From a virus: a stretch of 49,881 nt of DNA. The notes under the pieces were generated by a model. It made no database searches. It had not been told where the DNA came from and worked only from the letters and a program-made list of their open reading frames with translations. The stretch lies in IMG/VR virus record IMGVR_UViG_3300033145_000550, positions 1 through 49,881 of that record, one strand, 5' to 3'. The translations under genes were made by a program, and so were the position numbers. Below are positions 6,145 to 49,881 of the stretch, in pieces (the first letter of the stretch is position 1; each line of letters begins with the position of its first letter).

Positions 6145-7563
6145 ATGCAACCAGCAATTCTTCACCAGTTCAATAAGTTTGCGGCTAACAACAAGTCGCT
6201 GATTCAGAAAGCTCTGACATCGGCGACTGGTGTCGGCGAAGCTCTGGTTCCGCAGAGTCTCGAAGAGCAGATCACGGATACAGTTATCCGGCTCTCTCCC
6301 GAGCTCGCTCTGCTGACCACGAAGAGCATCGAAGGCAAAACTCATGAGTTCAACAGGCTGACCACAAGGCCTGCACCTGGCGGAGCGATGGGCGAAAACG
6401 CTACCACGCCGGTAACGAACTCCAAGACAGCCAGGGCGGACGTCGCTCTGAAGATCATTCGCAGGAAAGGAAAGGTCACGAATTTCCTGAACGACACGTC
6501 CAGGAAGTATATCGACACGGCTAGCTATGAGATGCAGAACCATCTGCAGGCTCACGTCCTGGACCTTATCGCATACTCTCTCTACGGAAATAAGGATTCT
6601 AACACATACGAGTTCGATGGTCTGGACAAGTTCATCGCCTCCAATAGACTGGACTTTGGCGGAGTCGTTCCGACGAACCTGGACTTCCTGGATGCCATGA
6701 TCGATAAGAGCAATCGCAAAGGCGGAGCCAGACATCGCAGGGTCTTCGGAATGTCTCCGGAGATGCTCTCGAAAGTCAGCCAGCTCCTGACGAACGTCCG
6801 TCTGAATCAGGGCCTGGTCAGTGGCCTCACTCAGGTCGACATCGCAGGCGGATGGAGACTGAACGCATACAGGGACATCCCGATCGTTGAGACCACAGCG
6901 GTCACACCGATCGAGCAGATGAGACCTGTGATCACGCCGTCCACGACTACTACCGGAGGCGGACTTTCCGATGCTACTTATTATTTCCGTATTGCTCCGA
7001 TCACGTATGAAGGCGAACAGCAGGCTTCGACGGAAGCCAACATCGTTCTGTCGGCAGGCGGAGCAATCCAGTTGATCAAACTCTCTCTCGCGGATATCCA
7101 CAGGGATGCAGGCGGAGACATCAACGTTTATTCGTACAAAATCTATATGGGAACAACTACGGGACTTGCCAATACACCGCTAATCAAAATCGTTCCTGCT
7201 AACCTGTACGACGCTGAAGGATCCCCGAACGGCCACAACGGAGTAGGCGTAGGCAACGAGATCTTGATCTCCACGCTGGTTCCTGGCTTAGACGTCCCGA
7301 TTCATATGCAGAGCGATCTGGCCCTGGATATTACAGCCGGTGTACCGGATGAGACAACCTACCTCTGGGACCTGGATCCGATCCAGGGACTCGGGAAGCT
7401 CCCGTACACTAACACATCGGGCGATCAGTTCAACGGCCTCGTCACCACGAAACCGCTGGCGGAAGTGGATGACTACATCCAGTTCCTGGTCAAGAGCTAC
7501 ACGGCTTTGACCGATGCATTCGAGGCAACTTCCTGCTGGACACGCAGGATCCGGAAGGCATAG
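6145..7563 (+). CDS. Major capsid protein (HK97-like) with Ig-like insertion
   Basis: A 472-residue protein in the capsid position, preceded by protease and scaffold and by a strong ACGGAGGAAATCA ribosome site. Residues 1-260 read like an HK97-fold shell protein: an N-terminal helix-rich arm, E-loop segment around 60-115, spine helix at 120-145, and a P-domain with M-x-P-E-M-L-S. Residues about 262-380 look like an inserted Ig/fibronectin-type domain: Y-Y-F-R-I-A-P-I-T-Y-E-G-E, then V-Y-S-Y-K-I-Y-M-G-T-T. The capsid fold resumes after about 380 and ends in a short basic tail. Such domains project from the capsid surface and may bind glycans. Confidence 0.85.
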   Translation: MQPAILHQFNKFAANNKSLIQKALTSATGVGEALVPQSLEEQITDTVIRLSPELALLTTKSIEGKTHEFNRLTTRPAPGGAMGENATTPVTNSKTARADVALKIIRRKGKVTNFLNDTSRKYIDTASYEMQNHLQAHVLDLIAYSLYGNKDSNTYEFDGLDKFIASNRLDFGGVVPTNLDFLDAMIDKSNRKGGARHRRVFGMSPEMLSKVSQLLTNVRLNQGLVSGLTQVDIAGGWRLNAYRDIPIVETTAVTPIEQMRPVITPSTTTTGGGLSDATYYFRIAPITYEGEQQASTEANIVLSAGGAIQLIKLSLADIHRDAGGDINVYSYKIYMGTTTGLANTPLIKIVPANLYDAEGSPNGHNGVGVGNEILISTLVPGLDVPIHMQSDLALDITAGVPDETTYLWDLDPIQGLGKLPYTNTSGDQFNGLVTTKPLAEVDDYIQFLVKSYTALTDAFEATSCWTRRIRKA

Positions 7564-7569
7564 TCTTCC

Positions 7570-7887
7570 GTGGCAGTTCATTCGCATAAAGCGTATGAGC
7601 AAAAAAAGCGAAGCGACCGAAAACCATCTTCGCATAAATCAGGAACGGGGCCGGTCAAACGACCGGCTCCTCCTCCTGTTGTTGCTGTTTCTCCCGACAT
7701 TCTGTACGAGCTTCATGATCCCGAGACCAGAACCTTCTGCGATGTGATTGTGCTCCGCGGACGGGAAGTCAGGAGAGATTGCAGAAACGGAATGATAAAA
7801 ACAAGGGATTCGGAACTGGCTGATTTCCAGATCAGCAAAGGATGGATCCTTTTAAATAAACAGGAGGTCGATCATGGCAAAAAGTAA
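7570..7887 (+). CDS. Hypothetical protein after the capsid gene
   Basis: A 105-residue protein. The first 40 residues are basic and proline-rich; the rest (ILYELHDPETRTFCDVIVLRG onward) looks folded. A GTG at 7570 is the likely start, but it overlaps a small inverted repeat (7552-7570) and has no clear ribosome site. A second, strong hairpin (7647-7670) lies inside the N-terminal coding part, so a later start is possible. Position suggests a small head-completion or regulatory protein; no domain is recognised. Confidence 0.5.
   Translation: MAVHSHKAYEQKKRSDRKPSSHKSGTGPVKRPAPPPVVAVSPDILYELHDPETRTFCDVIVLRGREVRRDCRNGMIKTRDSELADFQISKGWILLNKQEVDHGKK
7647..7670 (+). terminator. Terminator-like hairpin just downstream of the capsid gene
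   Basis: A ten-base stem with an AAAC loop (GGGGCCGGTC against GACCGGCTCC, one G-U pair) ends 107 bases after the capsid stop. It is followed by a C/T-rich stretch rather than a clean T run, so it may be only a partial terminator or an RNA processing or stability element that raises capsid over connector expression. Confidence 0.4.
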
Positions 7888-22787: not shown

Positions 22788-23455
22788 TGCTACCAATACC
22801 GTTCAAGGATTTTATACCGAAGATTTTCCGCAAAGATCCTAAAGCAGACTCACTGGCGAACAAGGCAGACGATCACCTGAAGGAATGGCGAAAGGATATC
22901 TTTGATTTGCTCCGGCTGATCCGGCCGGACGAGATCCCGAGTCAATACCTTCCAGAACTCGGATTCCTTCTCGAGGCAGGGATCAAGAACGACGACAGCG
23001 ACAAACTGAAAAGACAGAAAATAAGAGATGCGGTCAAGGGACATAGATTCCGAGGAACATTCAACCTGGATGTGAAACTCCGGCTTGATGCCATCACCGG
23101 ATATTCGTCCAGGATCCTTGATGAGGACGAAGAGGAGATCTGGGGAAGCGATGACTGGATCATGCTTTCAGACGGCGGAGCGACCGACTCGCTCGTCGGT
23201 ACCAAGTACTGGGGAGCCCTGGGCGTGGATGGAATCGATGATAAGCTCGGAATAGCCCTGACAGGCGGAGACGAGGTCTGGGTCAAGGTGAACGTATACA
23301 TTGATCTGCACGAGGGCGTGACCACGCCGGTCCTAACGCAGGACATTATCGACAAATGCGTTCTCGAGATGCAGGACGTCGCACCGGCATACTTTAACGT
23401 ATACCTTGGATATGTTGATTCGCTTGATAGATTCCAGCTATATGCTATTGTTTAA
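22787..23455 (+). CDS. Tail protein gpI-like (P2 gpI family)
   Basis: A 222-residue protein placed directly after the J-like gene as P2 gpI is. It has a helical start (residues 1-45), a Y-L-P-E-L-G-F-L-L-E segment and the gpI-like helix pair K-R-Q-K-I-R-D-A-V-K-G-H-R-F-R-G-T-F. The rest is beta-rich. It connects the wedge to the fibre, the next gene. The start overlaps the preceding stop (TAATG). After its stop, the sequence turns AT-rich and a promoter follows. Confidence 0.7.
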   Translation: MLPIPFKDFIPKIFRKDPKADSLANKADDHLKEWRKDIFDLLRLIRPDEIPSQYLPELGFLLEAGIKNDDSDKLKRQKIRDAVKGHRFRGTFNLDVKLRLDAITGYSSRILDEDEEEIWGSDDWIMLSDGGATDSLVGTKYWGALGVDGIDDKLGIALTGGDEVWVKVNVYIDLHEGVTTPVLTQDIIDKCVLEMQDVAPAYFNVYLGYVDSLDRFQLYAIV

Positions 23456-27069: not shown

Positions 27070-27104
27070 CCAATACCCAGATTTCTTTTTTCCATGCCCG
27101 TCGT

Positions 27105-27141
27105 CCCTGCAGAGACCCAGTTCTCTGCAGGGATTTTTTTT
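27105..27141 (+). terminator. Strong intrinsic terminator ending the lysis cassette
   Basis: CCCTGCAGAGA at 27105-27115 pairs perfectly with TCTCTGCAGGG at 27122-27132 across a six-base loop, followed by eight T residues. It closes the long + strand late operon 36 bases after the last lysis gene. Confidence 0.93.
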
Positions 27142-27163
27142 AAAAAAAATGCCGAAAACAGGA

Positions 27164-27190
27164 CATTTTGACATGGACCATGCTTATATT
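27164..27190 (+). promoter_or_regulatory. Promoter-like element with 11-bp spacing (early region, copy 1)
   Basis: The pattern C-A-TTTTGACAT-GGACCA-x-CTTATATT lies just after the terminator and upstream of the early genes. TTGACA (27168-27173) and TATATT (27185-27190) are only 11 bases apart, too short for an ordinary sigma-70 promoter, yet the same layout recurs at 34432-34458. It may be an alternative-sigma or phage-specific promoter, or an operator combined with a promoter. Confidence 0.5.
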
Positions 27191-27219
27191 AATGGGCAGA
27201 GCGCAAAGAAAGAATTGTT

Positions 27220-27240
27220 TAAGAATTCAAATAATTCTTA
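27220..27240. repeat. Inverted repeat, possible operator
   Basis: TAAGAATT and AATTCTTA are perfect 8-base arms around CAAAT. It lies 30 bases downstream of the promoter-like element at 27164, which would place it where a repressor could act. Confidence 0.5.
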
Positions 27241-27360
27241 AATTACCGATAACTACTACGATCCGGACCAGGATTCAAGAAAAAAATCACTAAAAAAAGA
27301 CTTTTTTTTTACAGCCAGGAGAGAGGCCGTGTCGGGCCCGTGTGGGCTCCTGGAGGACCT

Positions 27361-27374
27361 GCCCAGTACTGGGC
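27361..27374. repeat. 14-bp palindrome, copy 1
   Basis: GCCCAGTACTGGGC is a perfect palindrome. The same 14 bases, preceded by CT, occur at 47270-47283 before the terminase gene. Both copies are in noncoding gaps between transcription units and are followed by a second inverted repeat. Confidence 0.85.
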
Positions 27375-27525
27375 AATGAATAGCCATTCATAAAACTTGA
27401 CTAGTATGCAAAAAAACATTACTATTGGTGCAGATTACAAAGGAGGTAAAAACATAAACGGAGAGGATCACAAGGCAACTAAAACCTTTCTGGAGAAAAG
27501 AATCAATCACAAGGAGGAGACTACA

Positions 27526-27720
27526 ATGAACGAGATGGTAATTAATCGCTGGGACAGCGTCAACGGAGGCTTCACGAGGACATTCAGGATAAATACGGAT
27601 CTGACAGAAACCCGGATCCAGGAAAGACTGGATGACTTTCACGAGAGAACCGGAATCGAATTATATCAGTGCACTCCTGAAGAACAGAAGGCATGGGAAG
27701 CTGATTCATGCGTGTCCTGA
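27526..27720 (+). CDS. Small hypothetical early protein
   Basis: A 64-residue acidic protein without a recognised domain. ATG 27526 follows AAGGAGGAGACTACA, a very strong ribosome site, and this decides it over the open frame upstream. The C-terminus overlaps the methyltransferase gene by 13 bases. First gene of the early run. Confidence 0.6.
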   Translation: MNEMVINRWDSVNGGFTRTFRINTDLTETRIQERLDDFHERTGIELYQCTPEEQKAWEADSCVS

Positions 27721-30292: not shown

Positions 30293-30505
30293 ATGAAAGC
30301 AAAAAAGAAAGCCGGGTTCAATCATTCTAAATTGAGGTCGGTGATGGCTGAGAAGAAAATATCCAATGTCTGGCTGGCGAAGAAGCTCAAGAAGAATGAG
30401 CACACGATCTCCAACTGGAAGCAGGAAGTTTCACAGCCGACATGGACCGGACTCCTGGCACTGGCAAAGGTGCTGGGGATGAATTACAAAGAATTTTTAA
30501 TTTAA
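30293..30505 (+). CDS. XRE/Cro-like helix-turn-helix regulator
   Basis: A 70-residue single-domain HTH protein of the Cro/CI family. The HTH core is L-R-S-V-M-A-E-K-K-I-S-N-V-W-L-A-K-K-L, then the recognition helix K-N-E-H-T-I-S-N-W-K-Q-E and the closing W-T-G-L-L-A-L-A-K-V-L-G-M. It is a DNA-binding repressor or switch protein, most likely of early genes, with possible operators at 30056-30094. ATG 30293 follows AAAGGAGGTGCTG. Confidence 0.85.
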   Translation: MKAKKKAGFNHSKLRSVMAEKKISNVWLAKKLKKNEHTISNWKQEVSQPTWTGLLALAKVLGMNYKEFLI

Positions 30506-33529: not shown

Positions 33530-34411
33530 ATGACGGGACAAGGCAAGATGTTTAATGAGTCCGGGAGTTCAAAGCTCCCGGACGGTGCGATCGAGAACGA
33601 ACAGGACGAGATCGATCACAAGGCGGAGATGAAAAAGATCCATGCGACGGCCGGAACTCTCCCAGAGAAGCCAGTCAATCCAGGAGCGATACAGATAACG
33701 AAATGTCCAGAACCTGGATGCGGAAAGCCGTACAAGTTTGAAGAGCGAAAGATCGGTGGCGCACCGATCTTATTCCCAATTTATCAGTGCGACTGCAGGG
33801 AGAAGAAGAGACTGGAATGGGAACGGGAAGAGAAAGAGCGTACTGACCGGGAAAGATTCGACAGCCTGATCGGGACCAGCCGGATTCCACAGCGATGCAA
33901 GGACCAGGAGTATGAGATCCCAGAGGAGGCAGAGTACCTGGAGGATAACAACGGCGACGTGATAACGAATCTGCAGTACGACATATTCTACCGGATGAAG
34001 AAAGATTTCGAATACTATATGCGGACATACCCTGGGATTTTTGTCCCAGGCAATCCAGGAACTAGGAAGACGACATACGTCTGCGAGATAGCAAAGCAGG
34101 CGATGCGACTTGGCAGGTCCGTGCGATACTATCAATGCGCAGAGATCATCACAAACAAGATCAACATCTGGGAATTAGTCCGGCCGTCGTTCCTCATACT
34201 CGATGACGTAGGCAATGATCCGGTAGAGAACCGGAACAACATAGTCTGGACTCTGGTGAATAAGCGGATCGACGAGAAGAAGTTCACGGCGATCGTGACG
34301 AACTTCTCCGAAGAGCATAACAAGGTAATCTTCGGAGAAGCCTTCATAGACCGGCTTAAACTGCTTCTCCCAATCGTTATGATCGGGGAGAGCTCGAGGA
34401 AAATAAAATAA
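33530..34411 (+). CDS. DnaC-like replicative helicase loader (AAA+)
   Basis: A 293-residue AAA+ ATPase of the DnaC/IstB group. An N-terminal zinc-binding part has C-P-E-P-G-C at about 59-64 and C-D-C at about 87-89. Walker A is G-N-P-G-T-R-K-T-T (about 174-182), with Arg where Gly is usual; Walker B is F-L-I-L-D-D-V-G (about 221-228), followed by N-N-I-V-W-T-L-V-N-K-R and the sensor I-V-T-N-F-S. It loads the host or phage DnaB-type helicase. ATG 33530 follows GGGAGGTGATCT; the ATG at 33515 is upstream without a site. Confidence 0.82.
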   Translation: MTGQGKMFNESGSSKLPDGAIENEQDEIDHKAEMKKIHATAGTLPEKPVNPGAIQITKCPEPGCGKPYKFEERKIGGAPILFPIYQCDCREKKRLEWEREEKERTDRERFDSLIGTSRIPQRCKDQEYEIPEEAEYLEDNNGDVITNLQYDIFYRMKKDFEYYMRTYPGIFVPGNPGTRKTTYVCEIAKQAMRLGRSVRYYQCAEIITNKINIWELVRPSFLILDDVGNDPVENRNNIVWTLVNKRIDEKKFTAIVTNFSEEHNKVIFGEAFIDRLKLLLPIVMIGESSRKIK

Positions 34412-34431
34412 AAAAATTGCTGTTTTTTGGT

Positions 34432-34458
34432 CATTTTGACATCGGACCAACTTATATT
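34432..34458 (+). promoter_or_regulatory. Promoter-like element with 11-bp spacing (copy 2)
   Basis: C-A-TTTTGACATCGGACCA-x-CTTATATT, the same layout and length as 27164-27190: TTGACA 34436-34441, TATATT 34453-34458. It is upstream of the gene at 34468 and just after the helicase loader. TGGTC (34428-34432) and GACCA (34445-34449) also form an inverted repeat. Confidence 0.5.
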
Positions 34459-34467
34459 TAAATCAGA

Positions 34468-35091
34468 TTGGAGGAGACGGATATGACAGAAAAAAAGAAG
34501 ACTACGAATGTTATCAGCATCACTAAAGCTCAGAAGAGCTTCCAGGACCTGGCGGAGAAGACCTGGAACGTGGCGATCAACAGCTTACATCTTACCAGGA
34601 AAAATATGCTGGCCTTCGCAGGAGCAATGAAACTGATCCGGGACAAGGAGCTCTTCACGCATCGTAGTTATGATAACTTCGAACAAGCGTGCTGTTCTCC
34701 AGAGCTGAGTATTAGTCCGAAGACGGTAAATAATTACATCGCCATCTACGAATACTGGATCGAGAAGCAAAAGATCAAGATGGATGAACTAGCAGGGATC
34801 GAGTACAACAAACTCCTGCTCCTGAAGAAGGTTAAAAAGCCGATCGAATTCTTTGAAGAAGCGAAGACACTGGCTTATAAGGATTTTAAAAAGGTCATCC
34901 TGGAGAAGGAATTCAAACTAGAGCCAGACGAGAGTAGCGAGATCAATAATTATATAAAAAAGAATTCCCCGTGTCCATTCTGGACCGGCGAGTCCTGCAC
35001 GCAGGGAGTCCCGATGGAACCGAAAGGTCCTGACGGGAAGAAGGCAGGGAAGAAGTCGGGCAAAAAGAAAAAAGACGACGGTCTTATTTAA
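34468..35091 (+). CDS. Hypothetical protein after promoter-like element
   Basis: A 207-residue helical protein, basic at the C-terminus (a long Lys-rich tail) and possibly DNA-binding through I-S-P-K-T-V-N-N-Y-I-A-I-Y-E-Y-W (about 80-95). It is the first gene of its transcript. An internal ATG at 34483 (residue 6) follows GGAGACGGAT and is the better start. It is followed by two hairpins and a terminator. No function is recognised; a replication or regulator role is a guess. Confidence 0.5.
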   Translation: MEETDMTEKKKTTNVISITKAQKSFQDLAEKTWNVAINSLHLTRKNMLAFAGAMKLIRDKELFTHRSYDNFEQACCSPELSISPKTVNNYIAIYEYWIEKQKIKMDELAGIEYNKLLLLKKVKKPIEFFEEAKTLAYKDFKKVILEKEFKLEPDESSEINNYIKKNSPCPFWTGESCTQGVPMEPKGPDGKKAGKKSGKKKKDDGLI

Positions 35092-43445: not shown

Positions 43446-44816
43446 ATGGCGACTCAGATACCGAACCTATGCAATAACCCAGAACTGCTGATCAGCATCG
43501 CAGAGAACATGAAGAAGCACGGCGGATCATTCGTCCAGGCCCTGGCACGGAAACTCGAAACAATGATAGACGAGATCGTCGACAGTAAAAAGCGCATGGC
43601 CGGACATCATGGACCGGTACCATCCGGCACGATGGCCTGGAGGAGGAGCGTGAAAATTAAGATCAGCAAGACAGCCTGGACCGCTCTGCTCTGCGTGCAT
43701 CTGGTGACGACAGCCGTGCTGACGATCGGATGGGTAATGTCAAATAGATACGCACGGAAACTCGAAACAATGATAGACGAGATCGTCGACAGTAAAAAGC
43801 GCATGGCGAAAACAGACGAGGACTTCTACCAGGTTTTTAATTACAGGATGACAGTAGGGCGATCGGTCTACCAATGGCGATGGTACCAGCCGTTCGCCAC
43901 ACGGCTCGGAACCCTGTACCTGGACTCGCACTATCCGATGACGGACGAGGAGTACGACGGGATAGTGAAATTGTCCTGGAGGCTGAACCGGTACCTCTGC
44001 ATCCCGAAGGACGACGAAAAGAACTTCGTTCCGCTCGGGGATCTGATCCAGGAGTCTGCGCTGTACCCGGAAGTGAAACACAAGACCGGAGAGTACCTGG
44101 CTCTCGCAGGATTTATGAAGAGCACGACCGACGAAGCGATCAAGATCTACAACAGGGAAGTGAAGCCGATCCGAGGATCAGATCTATACATCGAGGGACT
44201 GAACAGAGCGGACCCGAACCTGAAGGAAATCTTCAAGGATCCGGAGAACGTCGTCCGGCTCTGGTACGTTTACTTCCGCTGGCTCCTGGAGAGGTATGAA
44301 TACAACTGGGAGTTCGCGCTAACGGCGTATCATTTCGGACCAGGGAAGACGGACTACTGGTGGGCGATCGGACTGCGGACCATCCCTCGATATGGATACA
44401 GGCGCATGGGGAAATGGGAGTTCCACTTCATGAAAGGATATTCCAGGAACGTCTTCGAGATAGCGCACAGCCTCTGGCTTGGCGAGAGCAGACCGAGCAG
44501 AGGACTGCACAGGAACGTCGTGGCCTTCCGGAAGGTGAACGAACACCGGCAAGGATTTGTGGATTACCTGAGAATAGAGGTGGAGCATTTCAACGAAGGC
44601 GAAGAGCTGAAGCAGGAAATAAAAGAGCTCAATGAAAAGCACACACACTTCGAGCAGACTACAGAGAAATTACTAGCGACGGCCGGAAAGGGAATGAACA
44701 TGATGCTCGATGCTGAATACTACCAGAAGCGGAAAGCCCTGGAACCGTACAGAAAGATCCGGAACTTCTTCCGGGATGCATGGCGTAATTACCAGGACCA
44801 GAAGGAGGAGGGATGA
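43446..44816 (+). CDS. Membrane-anchored lytic transglycosylase with duplicated N-terminal segment
   Basis: A 456-residue protein. Residues 10-33 (N-N-P-E-L-L-I-S-I-A-E-N-M-K-K-H-G-G-S-F-V-Q-A-L-A) belong to a very common short phage family, here cut off. A 19-residue segment A-R-K-L-E-T-M-I-D-E-I-V-D-S-K-K-R-M-A then appears twice (34-52, 103-121), encoded by an exact 56-bp repeat. A TM helix lies at about 75-97. The C-terminal domain looks like a lysozyme-type transglycosylase with probable catalytic E203 in L-I-Q-E-S-A-L-Y-P-E-V and A-L-T-A-Y-H-F-G-P-G at 291-300. An internal ATG at 43632 would begin just before the TM helix. It may remodel the cell wall during infection or release. Confidence 0.65.
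   Translation: MATQIPNLCNNPELLISIAENMKKHGGSFVQALARKLETMIDEIVDSKKRMAGHHGPVPSGTMAWRRSVKIKISKTAWTALLCVHLVTTAVLTIGWVMSNRYARKLETMIDEIVDSKKRMAKTDEDFYQVFNYRMTVGRSVYQWRWYQPFATRLGTLYLDSHYPMTDEEYDGIVKLSWRLNRYLCIPKDDEKNFVPLGDLIQESALYPEVKHKTGEYLALAGFMKSTTDEAIKIYNREVKPIRGSDLYIEGLNRADPNLKEIFKDPENVVRLWYVYFRWLLERYEYNWEFALTAYHFGPGKTDYWWAIGLRTIPRYGYRRMGKWEFHFMKGYSRNVFEIAHSLWLGESRPSRGLHRNVVAFRKVNEHRQGFVDYLRIEVEHFNEGEELKQEIKELNEKHTHFEQTTEKLLATAGKGMNMMLDAEYYQKRKALEPYRKIRNFFRDAWRNYQDQKEEG
43545..43600 (+). repeat. 56-bp direct repeat, copy 1
   Basis: Identical to 43752-43807 without mismatch, third codon positions included, and in the same frame 207 bases apart. It flanks the TM segment of the transglycosylase gene. 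Confidence 0.95.
43752..43807 (+). repeat. 56-bp direct repeat, copy 2
   Basis: Second copy of the 43545-43600 repeat. Encodes A-R-K-L-E-T-M-I-D-E-I-V-D-S-K-K-R-M-A immediately before the soluble catalytic part. Confidence 0.95.
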
Positions 44817-46591: not shown

Positions 46592-46619
46592 CAGTAAGAT
46601 AATAAATCTCCCACATAAG

Positions 46620-46651
46620 AGCCGACCAGTACAAGCTGGTTGGCTTTTTTT
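46620..46651 (+). terminator. Intrinsic terminator
   Basis: AGCCGACCAG (46620-46629) pairs with CTGGTTGGCT (46636-46645, one G-U) across TACAAG and is followed by a T run. It ends the transcript from the promoter at 46204. Confidence 0.85.
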
Positions 46652-46669: not shown

Positions 46670-46825
46670 ATGAACGAAATATGGAATCAATTCATGGACG
46701 ACTACATAGCAGGGAAGCTGAAGGGAGAACCGTACGAGGGACTGAACACTACGAACACACGCAGACTACTCCGGGCCTTCTGGTTCTATCTCAAAGAGAA
46801 AGGCCTGACGAAGGAGGACACATGA
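46670..46825 (+). CDS. Small hypothetical protein before the lipoprotein
   Basis: A 51-residue helical protein, ATG 46670 after GAGGAGCGAGC. Its stop overlaps the lipoprotein ATG (ATGA). No domain is recognised. With the terminator immediately upstream, its transcription must depend on read-through or a promoter not seen. Confidence 0.5.
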   Translation: MNEIWNQFMDDYIAGKLKGEPYEGLNTTNTRRLLRAFWFYLKEKGLTKEDT

Positions 46826-47265
46826 AAAGGATTTTAAGAATCTTTGCTCCAAGCATTATAGCGTTGATTTTCATGCTGACTTTAATAGCTAGCGTTTCTT
46901 GTGATTTATTTCAAGGCGAGGAAGGACCAATGGGACTGATGGGCCCGACCGGTCCTGGAGGATTATCTTCGAACTTTGAGTGGTCGGGGAATCTGGAGTT
47001 CAGCCATTTTGAAAGTGGCGTGCTTACTTATTTTACTAATTGCATTTATGATCCCCGATTGACATATACAAATATTATAGTTTTAAATGTGTATATCAGG
47101 ACGAATGAGGAATGGGAACAAGACGGATGGTTATTCTGGGGAGAGTCGCCTATCCATTTCGAGGAGAATAAAGCTAGGCTCATTGCATATGCGTGCCAGA
47201 GCAATCCATCATATAGGACACTGAGACCGCACTGCCTAGTCCGAGCGGTCCTGTACGAAGATTGA
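46822..47265 (+). CDS. Phage-encoded lipoprotein with collagen-like triplets
   Basis: A 147-residue protein with a classic lipoprotein signal: K-R-I-L-R-I-F, a hydrophobic core and the lipobox I-A-S-V-S-C (Cys27). Directly after it comes G-E-E-G-P-M-G-L-M-G-P-T-G-P-G-G, a collagen-like Gly-x-y stretch, then an AT-rich, beta-rich domain of about 100 residues with three Cys. It would be exported and anchored in a membrane of the host. Phage lipoproteins often block receptors and exclude other phages. Lipobox and G-x-y pattern occur in spirochaetes and Bacteroidota. Confidence 0.7.
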   Translation: MKRILRIFAPSIIALIFMLTLIASVSCDLFQGEEGPMGLMGPTGPGGLSSNFEWSGNLEFSHFESGVLTYFTNCIYDPRLTYTNIIVLNVYIRTNEEWEQDGWLFWGESPIHFEENKARLIAYACQSNPSYRTLRPHCLVRAVLYED

Positions 47266-47269
47266 ATCT

Positions 47270-47283
47270 GCCCAGTACTGGGC
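47270..47283. repeat. 14-bp palindrome, copy 2
   Basis: GCCCAGTACTGGGC as at 27361-27374, again in a gap between transcription units, 10 bases before the terminase ATG. A TGCAT-TT-ATGCA inverted repeat follows directly. Confidence 0.85.
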
Positions 47284-47293
47284 TTATGCATTT

Positions 47294-48913
47294 ATGCAAA
47301 AAAAGATAATGAGAGCAAGGATGACAACGAAAGACCTAGACCAGCGGAACGACTACCTGAAGGAAAACTATCCCGAGATGTACGTCGGGATGAACTTCCA
47401 CCACACGCACAAAAACGAGATGCTGTCCTTCGACGGGATGCGATACCTGCGGAACATCTACATGGACAAGAGCGACTACATAGTATTCAGGAAATGCACG
47501 CAGGTCGGTATCAGCGAGTACCTGGTCGTCCGAGCGATCACTGCCAGTGCAAACGGCCGTGGTGTTTTTTATGTCATGCCAACGCAGGAATTGATAAGAC
47601 GATTCGTTAAAAACAGAGTCGACCGATCGATTGAGTTCACGCCTTTCTATAGGAACCTACTCAAATATAATCCGAGCAGATCAGCAGAGAACATCTCACT
47701 GAAACACATCGGCAAAGGAAGCATAGCATTTCTAGGAAGCAACGCATCGGCAGGCTTCACGGAATATCCTGCAGACGATTTGATAATCGACGAGATGGAC
47801 GAGTGCGACCAGGAGAAGCTGGCGATGGCCGTCGAACGTTTATCGGCATCGAAGAACAAGAGGATCATCAAGATCGGTAACCCGACGTTCCTGGGAATCG
47901 GGATAGACGCAGAGTATAACAAGAGCAACCAACAGGTCTGGGAAGTAAAATGTCCGCACTGCGGACTCTGGCAGACACTGGATTTTTTTAAGAACATCGT
48001 GAAGGAAGTCGAAGCTCGGGAATACGTGATCATAGACAAAGGCTGGGAGAAGGGATGCGGACGGGATATCTACGTGCTCTGCATCAAGTGCAAGAAGCCG
48101 GTGGACCGGCACGCAGACGGACGATGGGTGAAGAAGAACCCGAGGTCCGACATATCCGGATACCAGGTTAATAAGATCTTCGCAAAGCACATAAAAATTA
48201 CAGAGCTGATCGATCGGTTTGAGGAAGGCCTGGTAGACGACACAAAGCTCCAGAGGTTTTATAACGGAGACCTCGGTCTGGCATTCACAGCAAGCGGAGC
48301 GAAGGTCGACTACTCGATGCTCCAGGAATGCATGGGCGATTATTCATTCCAGACCGGATGCAAGAACCCGTGTGTCATGGGCATCGACGTCGGGAATAAA
48401 CTCCACACGGTGATCGGCGAGATGATCCCGGGTGGAAAGATCAAGACGATCTACGCAGGGATGCTAAAGGATCCCGAGGACATCCTGGACCTGGCCAGAC
48501 GGTTCAAAATCCGCTTCGGAATCATCGACGCTTTGCCGGAAAAAAGAATGTCGAAAAAGCTGGCAGGCAAGATACGAGGATTATTCCTCTGCTACTACGG
48601 AGACGTGAAAAAGATTCAGTCGAACATCCAGGAGCGGTTTATCACCGTCGATCGCACGGCGTCTCTGGATGCGGTCAAAGAGGCAGTCCTGACGAAAGGG
48701 ATCCTGTTCCCGAGGAACGCTGATAAGATGATGCCCCTGGCCTCTGACGGCTATTCAGAACTGTTCTACGAGATGACGACAGCGACCAGGATCCTGAACG
48801 AGAGAAGGAAAGCATACGAGTGGATAGAGGGAGGAAACCCAGATCACTATTTCCACGCCGTCTGCTATATGCTCCTGGCACATAGATTATTTGTACGGGC
48901 CATGAATCGGTAA
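47294..48913 (+). CDS. Terminase large subunit (GpA-like)
   Basis: A 539-residue packaging ATPase/nuclease. A Walker-A-like R-K-C-T-Q-V-G-I-S-E lies at 66-75 and Walker B D-L-I-I-D-E-M-D-E at 162-170, with I-K-I-G-N-P-T (192-198) as the coupling motif. A zinc ribbon inserted between the domains has C220-P-H-C223 and C263-I-K-C266, typical of GpA-type terminases. The nuclease acidic residues are D365 in G-I-D-V-G-N, D412 in G-I-I-D-A-L-P and an Asp in G-N-P-D-H-Y-F-H-A (about 525). It powers DNA entry and cuts the concatemer. The ATG at 47294 lacks a good ribosome site; 47321 is possible. Confidence 0.9.
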   Translation: MQKKIMRARMTTKDLDQRNDYLKENYPEMYVGMNFHHTHKNEMLSFDGMRYLRNIYMDKSDYIVFRKCTQVGISEYLVVRAITASANGRGVFYVMPTQELIRRFVKNRVDRSIEFTPFYRNLLKYNPSRSAENISLKHIGKGSIAFLGSNASAGFTEYPADDLIIDEMDECDQEKLAMAVERLSASKNKRIIKIGNPTFLGIGIDAEYNKSNQQVWEVKCPHCGLWQTLDFFKNIVKEVEAREYVIIDKGWEKGCGRDIYVLCIKCKKPVDRHADGRWVKKNPRSDISGYQVNKIFAKHIKITELIDRFEEGLVDDTKLQRFYNGDLGLAFTASGAKVDYSMLQECMGDYSFQTGCKNPCVMGIDVGNKLHTVIGEMIPGGKIKTIYAGMLKDPEDILDLARRFKIRFGIIDALPEKRMSKKLAGKIRGLFLCYYGDVKKIQSNIQERFITVDRTASLDAVKEAVLTKGILFPRNADKMMPLASDGYSELFYEMTTATRILNERRKAYEWIEGGNPDHYFHAVCYMLLAHRLFVRAMNR

Positions 48914-48933: not shown

Positions 48934-48962
48934 TTGACGCAGATAAGAAAAAGGTGTATATT
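48934..48962 (+). promoter_or_regulatory. Sigma-70-like promoter before portal
   Basis: TTGACG (48934-48939) and TATATT (48957-48962) separated by 17 bases. A transcript would begin near 48969, directly at the portal leader, about 50 bases upstream of the hairpin at 49019. Confidence 0.65.
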
Positions 48963-48967
48963 TAGTT

Positions 48968-49237
48968 ATGACTGCAAAAAAGCGGACTACGAGAACAGCA
49001 ACAACATCCCACAGGATCAAGAAGGCCTCTGTCACCCGGAGGCCTTCTTCTGTTTCCAAGTCTGCTTTACCAGCAAAGGTCGAGAAAGTTCTCTCACAGC
49101 CGGACGGCCAGAACAAGATTAATACGACATACACGAATGAACCATATCGGAGTCCGATGGCCGGACAGGGAACACCGGAAAGGGCGAAGACGGGAAATAT
49201 ATTACCTGGGGAATCGAACAGCCGTACTTCTTTCTAA
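48968..49237 (+). CDS. Possible portal N-terminal peptide (frame differs from portal body)
   Basis: Open from ATG 48968 for 89 residues; basic, Thr/Lys/Arg-rich start, as portal N-termini often are. It ends at TAA 49235-49237 while the portal body is in the -1 frame, open from 49141. GGGAAAT at 49192-49198 is read as G GGA AAT in this frame and would allow a -1 slip into the portal frame. A one-base error in the assembly is the simpler reading. A hairpin with an 11-base perfect stem (49019-49049) lies inside this stretch, so it could also be an untranslated leader. Confidence 0.45.
   Translation: MTAKKRTTRTATTSHRIKKASVTRRPSSVSKSALPAKVEKVLSQPDGQNKINTTYTNEPYRSPMAGQGTPERAKTGNILPGESNSRTSF
49019..49049 (+). 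terminator. Hairpin in the portal leader (terminator or attenuator-like)
   Basis: AAGAAGGCCTC (49019-49029) and GAGGCCTTCTT (49039-49049) form a perfect 11-base stem around a nine-base loop, 50 bases after the expected start of the promoter at 48934. It is followed by CTGTTTCC, only a weak T stretch, so it may act as an attenuator or stability element. Confidence 0.5.
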
Positions 49238-49881
49238 CAGCTGAACAGCGAAATCAGATCTTTAAACTTTCCACACCAGTGTTCGGAGTTGTCACCAGCA
49301 GGATGAATAGAATCTCGGCCGTCGACTTCGGCGTCGTACCGATCAAACATCGAGAGGACCAGATCGCAGACGACCTTAAAATGATGAAGCAGGTCTATGA
49401 CGAATATAAAGATACAATGGAACTGAAATACGTAACGGTCCGGAGCCAGATGTCCCAGCGTATCCGGCAAACACTTCCGGACGTCCTTCCCGATCTATCC
49501 AACTTCGACCGATCGCTTCTGCGCTGGAAGAAAATAATCCAGAACAAACAACTGCAGACCGGCGAGGAAATAAAAGAATGGCTTATGGAGCCGAACAACG
49601 GAGTGACTTGGACGGACTATATCAAGAAGACCGTATACGCTCTGATGATCCACGGATGCGAAGCGACATATAAACAATACGAGGCGAATAGACTCGAGAA
49701 CTTTGACAGCCTCCCTGGAGGAACAGTATATAAATTCAAGTCTTCACATTTCTCCGGAGTCGATGGATATATGCAGATCGTCGCAGGATACGAACCGCAG
49801 GCATTCTTCGCAAAGGAATGTATGTACCTGGAATACCTTCCGACGTCCTCGCAGAATTATCCGATGGTCCCTCTCGAAGCT
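49141..49881 (+). CDS. Portal protein, N-terminal part (continues at base 4)
   Basis: The frame opens after TGA 49138-49140 and runs through the right end, resuming at base 4 after the repeat. No ATG occurs until 49302, well inside the folded part, so the start must lie upstream in the other frame (ATG 48968) or the assembly has a frame error. The first recognisable portal-like piece is Y-I-T-W-G-I-E-Q-P-Y-F-F followed by helices L-T-A-E-Q-R-N-Q-I-F-K-L, S-P/V-F-G-V-V and the R-M-N-R-I-S segment. See the portal entry at 1-831 for the rest. Confidence 0.75.
49768..49881. repeat. Exact terminal direct repeat, right copy
   Basis: Identical to bases 1-114. Joining the ends keeps the portal frame intact. 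Confidence 0.95.

Follow-up and report, generated by a model that had tools for sequence, protein, structure and literature searches.

What does a perfect palindrome do when it stands, unchanged, at both major gene-run heads of a phage? The question is raised by the window, the whole 49,881-nt stretch analyzed here (IMG/VR record IMGVR_UViG_3300033145_000550, positions 1 to 49,881). Judged from its sequence, the source of the record is a myophage whose structural genes are related to those of the Leptospira phages LE3 and LE4. Because it bears a direct terminal repeat of 114 bp (1-114 identical to 49768-49881), we treat the record as a circular map of 49767 bp and probably a complete genome. 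The genes are apparently on the plus strand throughout and tightly packed, and most have a good Shine-Dalgarno (SD) sequence. The heads of the gene runs were deduced from the gene layout and the terminators. The late run starts with terL at 47.3 kb, crosses the record ends and continues to 27069, just before a strong terminator; it contains portal, capsid, sheath, tape measure, baseplate and endolysin genes. The early/middle run spans about 27.4 to 47.27 kb. The landmarks are as follows.

27103..27140, plus strand: strong intrinsic terminator that lies ahead of site 1 and closes the late run
27359..27375, no strand: site 1, CTGCCCAGTACTGGGCA, a perfect dyad of 16 bp heading the early run
27406..27720, plus strand: first ORF of the early run, from ATG 27406 or from ATG 27526 with AAGGAGG
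30293..30505, plus strand: Cro/CI-type helix-turn-helix (HTH, XRE) protein of 70 aa, candidate cognate regulator
46617..46648, plus strand: intrinsic terminator, some 620 nt ahead of site 2
47268..47283, no strand: site 2, CTGCCCAGTACTGGGC, a perfect dyad of 14 bp heading the terminase/late run, 4 nt beyond the preceding stop codon
47321..48913, plus strand: terL (large terminase), start set by alignment to relatives, without a good SD sequence

A sequence-only reading had reported a 16-base word at 27359 and 47268, placed it in noncoding gaps where the early and terminase units begin, and considered a chance repetition of its 14-bp palindrome very unlikely. All three points were confirmed. 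The word CTGCCCAGTACTGGGC occurs at 27359 and 47268, with no third copy in the genome, and the palindrome within it, GCCCAGTACTGGGC, occupies positions 27361-27374 and 47270-47283 exactly. No further copy with up to two mismatches was found genome-wide, and the one variant with three mismatches, at 23201, is ordinary. Noncoding gaps are scarce in this genome, and both copies fall in such gaps, one heading the early run and the other the terminase/late run. The dyad is longer at site 1 (16 bp, TGCCCAGTACTGGGCA) than at site 2 (14 bp), and at both sites it is carried on by the central 4 nt, GTAC; a single such central continuation has a chance of 1 in 16. GCCCAGTACTGGGC is the sole 14-bp perfect palindrome that recurs in the genome; among 1000 order-4 Markov genomes, there was none with a recurring one. 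Single 14-bp palindromes numbered 7, against a mean of 3.7 per Markov genome. Since 16-mers occurring twice are not rare here, the length of the word alone is unremarkable; what makes it unusual is its palindromy and its placement. A search of IMG/VR with the 14-mer gave 78 loci, mostly within ORFs and unrelated to the window, which corresponds to the chance level. The composite CCCAGTACTGGG-N{5,35}-ATGCAAAAAA had no match in IMG/VR, and CCCAGTACTGGG had none in the literature searched. An intrinsic terminator was rejected for either copy: no T run follows either palindrome, and the real terminators, at 27103 and 46617, lie upstream of each.

Several smaller elements follow the two palindromes.

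27376..27391, plus strand: second inverted repeat at site 1, ATGAAT-AGCC-ATTCAT, weak alone
27397..27425, plus strand: promoter-like TTGACT-17-TACTAT, a consensus match only; the palindrome centre would be at -64.5
27405..27416, plus strand: TATGCAAAAAAA, 30 nt past the site-1 palindrome, containing a possible SD-less ATG at 27406
47287..47298, plus strand: second inverted repeat at site 2, TGCAT-TT-ATGCA, weak alone
47293..47304, plus strand: TATGCAAAAAAA, 9 nt past the site-2 palindrome, containing ATG 47294 in frame with terL
47305..47310, plus strand: -10-like GATAAT, from the sequence, with no recognizable -35; the palindrome centre would be at -40.5

The second inverted repeat described earlier after each palindrome does exist, but it is weak support, because about 3% (site-1 type) and 12% (site-2 type) of the AT-rich 30-mers in the genome contain one as good. 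Another perfect interrupted inverted repeat, TTTAAGAATT-CAAAT-AATTCTTAAA, is found at 27218-27242 in the same gap as site 1. The block TATGCAAAAAAA had been overlooked. It has exactly two copies in the genome, both on the plus strand, and two AT-rich 50-nt segments had a 12-mer in common in 9 of 20000 random draws. Its distance from the palindrome differs between the two sites by 21 bp. This equals two helical turns of B-DNA and fits an element acting at the DNA level.

We favor, with a probability of roughly 0.55, the reading that the palindrome serves as a dyad operator through which a single dimeric regulator, possibly the phage XRE protein, ties early and late transcription together. The regulator would bind the perfect dyad in the control region of each run, and the same protein would set the timing of early and of terminase/late transcription. 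What we infer is a phage-encoded protein that binds the dyad and acts on transcription. An operator coupling early and late genes had been suggested before, and this proposal was partly supported. The identical dyad and TATGCAAAAAAA, in the same order and on the same strand, stand at both run heads, so that the control regions of at least two transcription units have the same dyad. A Cro/CI-type HTH gene is present in the site-1 run, and a different shared dyad stands at run heads in LE3 and LE4, the late one included (see below). The continuation through GTAC argues for a DNA-binding dimer over an RNA hairpin, because a dimer needs symmetry there and a hairpin loop does not.

The XRE protein at 30293 (Pfam HTH_26, 7.6e-08; PDB matches 3omt and 3bs3) would be the first candidate, and site 1 would then form part of an autoregulatory loop. 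Its gene lies inside the run headed by site 1, with promoters possible in between; no palindrome copy is found directly before it, which weakens the operator reading. As to the mode of action, class I and class II activators of the CAP type bind with centers near -64.5 and in the -40.5 region. An activator is slightly preferred to a repressor: provided that the -10-like boxes are real, the predicted palindrome centers match these two positions, and site 2 lacks a -35. The start sites used for this comparison are guesses. The promoters, being guesses from the consensus, also weigh against the operator. In the 900-nt region around site 1, two promoter-like matches were found against a shuffle mean of 1.2, which is near expectation; at site 2, no full match to a promoter was found. 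In addition, the site-1 promoter is incompatible with a start at ATG 27406, as it would sit inside the ORF, and the segment 27406-27525 does score as coding. Its score in that frame is 0.17, compared with a 5% quantile of 0.07 for real segments and a 95% quantile of -0.11 for out-of-frame ones.

This coding score also speaks for an RNA element, in which a GCCCA/UGGGC hairpin and a second hairpin upstream of SD-less starts (AUGCAAAAAAA) would act on how the first gene of each run is translated or how its mRNA is processed. It is the main rival, because both TATGCAAAAAAA blocks surround SD-less start codons; we regard it as possible and rather unlikely. The ATG in each block is in frame with the following ORF and lacks an SD sequence, whereas most genes of the genome have a good one; for terL, ATG 47321 is the start that best fits the alignment with relatives. 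Tandem hairpins form the minimum-energy fold at both sites, but the folding barely beats that of shuffled sequences (z of -1.3 and -1.6), the dyad carries on through what would be the loop, the distance from hairpin to ATG is unequal (31 versus 10 nt), and no Rfam family matched in the window. It is doubtful that the dyad, an in-phase spacer and an SD-less ATGCAAAAAAA start make up one composite element coupling transcription with SD-independent translation of the first genes of both runs. If true, this would be a phage-wide timing signal.

The operator reading can be compared with known systems. XRE (Cro/CI-type) phage operators, such as those of 434 and P22, are 14-bp dyads. As in these phages, the window combines a short perfect dyad in control regions with a Cro/CI-type HTH gene. 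Their operators are clustered, whereas the candidate operator here has one site per run, and no divergent lysogeny switch was seen. In staphylococcal phages, the site of the RinA/Ltr regulator lies just before the terminase-led late operon; the Ltr sites are direct repeats, in Phi13 three perfect ones of 18 bp plus a partial one, and they serve one promoter, with the regulator gene directly upstream (PMC13123087). Site 2 is likewise just ahead of a terminase-led late operon, but it is a dyad shared with the early run. No direct-repeat array of the Ltr/RinA kind was found in the sequence at site 2, where a single dyad is present.

To look for the palindrome in equivalent gaps, as had been suggested, relatives were collected from MCP and terL alignments. 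All were distant, the nearest being 60% identical in the terminase or 73% in the capsid. The capsid relatives were IMG/VR contigs at 73, 62 and 58% identity, LE3/LE4 at 50% and a contig in a Clostridia MAG at 45%. No relatives were obtained with single-sequence terL, with an early protein or by DNA similarity of both gaps. CCCAGTACTGGG, even CCAGTACTGG, and TATGCAAAAAAA were absent from 109 loci of the distant relatives (1.24 Mb), so that no conservation in equivalent gaps was seen among them. This absence has little refuting force, because only distant relatives were compared and because a gap before terL is missing in nearly all of them: of the 37 relatives examined, nearly all have a preceding ORF that overlaps or abuts terL. 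The closest terL relative (L110, 60%) does have a gap of about 30 nt before terL, without the palindrome. The missing sequence in the relatives, the L110 gap and the mere two copies weaken the operator reading. In the window (46822-47330), no small terminase gene was recognizable before terL, and the preceding gene has a collagen-like Gly-X-Y stretch; most relatives have an ORF that overlaps terL.

LE3 and LE4 have a different dyad, GTTTACAAAAANTAAAC (GTTTA-N7-TAAAC), with five matches in each genome against 0.2 expected. In LE3 (L085) it lies at 7700, 33878, 34340, 36295 and 47135, with a sixth match across the record start; in LE4 (L086), at 7090, 33284, 33746, 35873 and 46713. The matches are mostly at the heads of gene runs: in LE3, the one at 7700 lies before the terL-containing run, and those at 33878 and 34340 come after the late run; others are ahead of gp61 and gp80. 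The dyad overlaps a TTTACA -35-like box. The paper on the LE3 and LE4 genomes (PMC6078989) does not speak of promoters, operators, palindromes or repeats, and the shared dyad has apparently not been described before. As the same dyad is found at late and early heads in these phages, the arrangement of one dyad at several run heads recurs in the lineage with another sequence. Unlike the palindrome of the window, GTTTACAAAAANTAAAC is interrupted and AT-rich, lies over a -35-like box and has five to six copies. For the palindrome of the window, the proposed regulatory idea is familiar and the sequence new. The palindrome provides a concrete, testable target for expression timing in a myophage lineage that has hardly been studied and has the few Leptospira phages known so far as relatives, and the analysis led to the shared dyad of LE3 and LE4, which infect the culturable saprophyte L. 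biflexa.

Three other explanations were considered. The two copies exactly bracket the 19.9-kb early region, and the relatives have the structural module in common and almost no early genes, so the words might be boundary sequences, kept or spread as recombination swaps early modules. We give this little credence: 16 bases are short for homologous exchange, the word is in no relative, early genes commonly diverge faster, and no site-specific recombinase gene was recognized among the proteins scanned. An operator for a host regulator instead of a phage one would have an identical site architecture, but the word is at the chance level in other viral contigs and mostly inside genes, which makes this quite improbable. 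Palindromes are known in some cos and origin regions, and site 2 adjoins terL; however, the packaging or replication signal proposed earlier is very improbable, because two identical cut signals would be expected to break the genome into 20- and 30-kb pieces, and neither iterons nor a GC-skew switch was found at either site. Genome ends near 47268 had been suggested for mapping; the 114-bp end overlap lies inside the portal gene instead, and the record maps circularly.

Some further features of the window were observed. Two promoter-like stretches, 27161-27192 in the site-1 gap and 34429-34460 before the lone gene 34483-35091, share CATTTTGACAT, GGACCA and CTTATATT, with an unusual TTGACA-TATATT spacing of 11 nt; the AlphaFold model of the product of gene 34483 was poor (pLDDT 42). 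At 48934-48970, the predicted start of a promoter TTGACG-17-TATATT coincides with the ATG of gene 48968, which suggests that this gene is likely leaderless. Directly 3' of the pyrophosphatase-domain gene 1273-2268, an AT-rich open frame of about 100 codons (2236-2573) has no start codon and is near a run of nine A; a frameshift, a sequencing error or a decayed gene is possible. Within the SLT-domain gene 43446-44816, an exact repeat of about 55 to 60 bp is found at 43545-43606 and 43752-43813, 207 bp apart.
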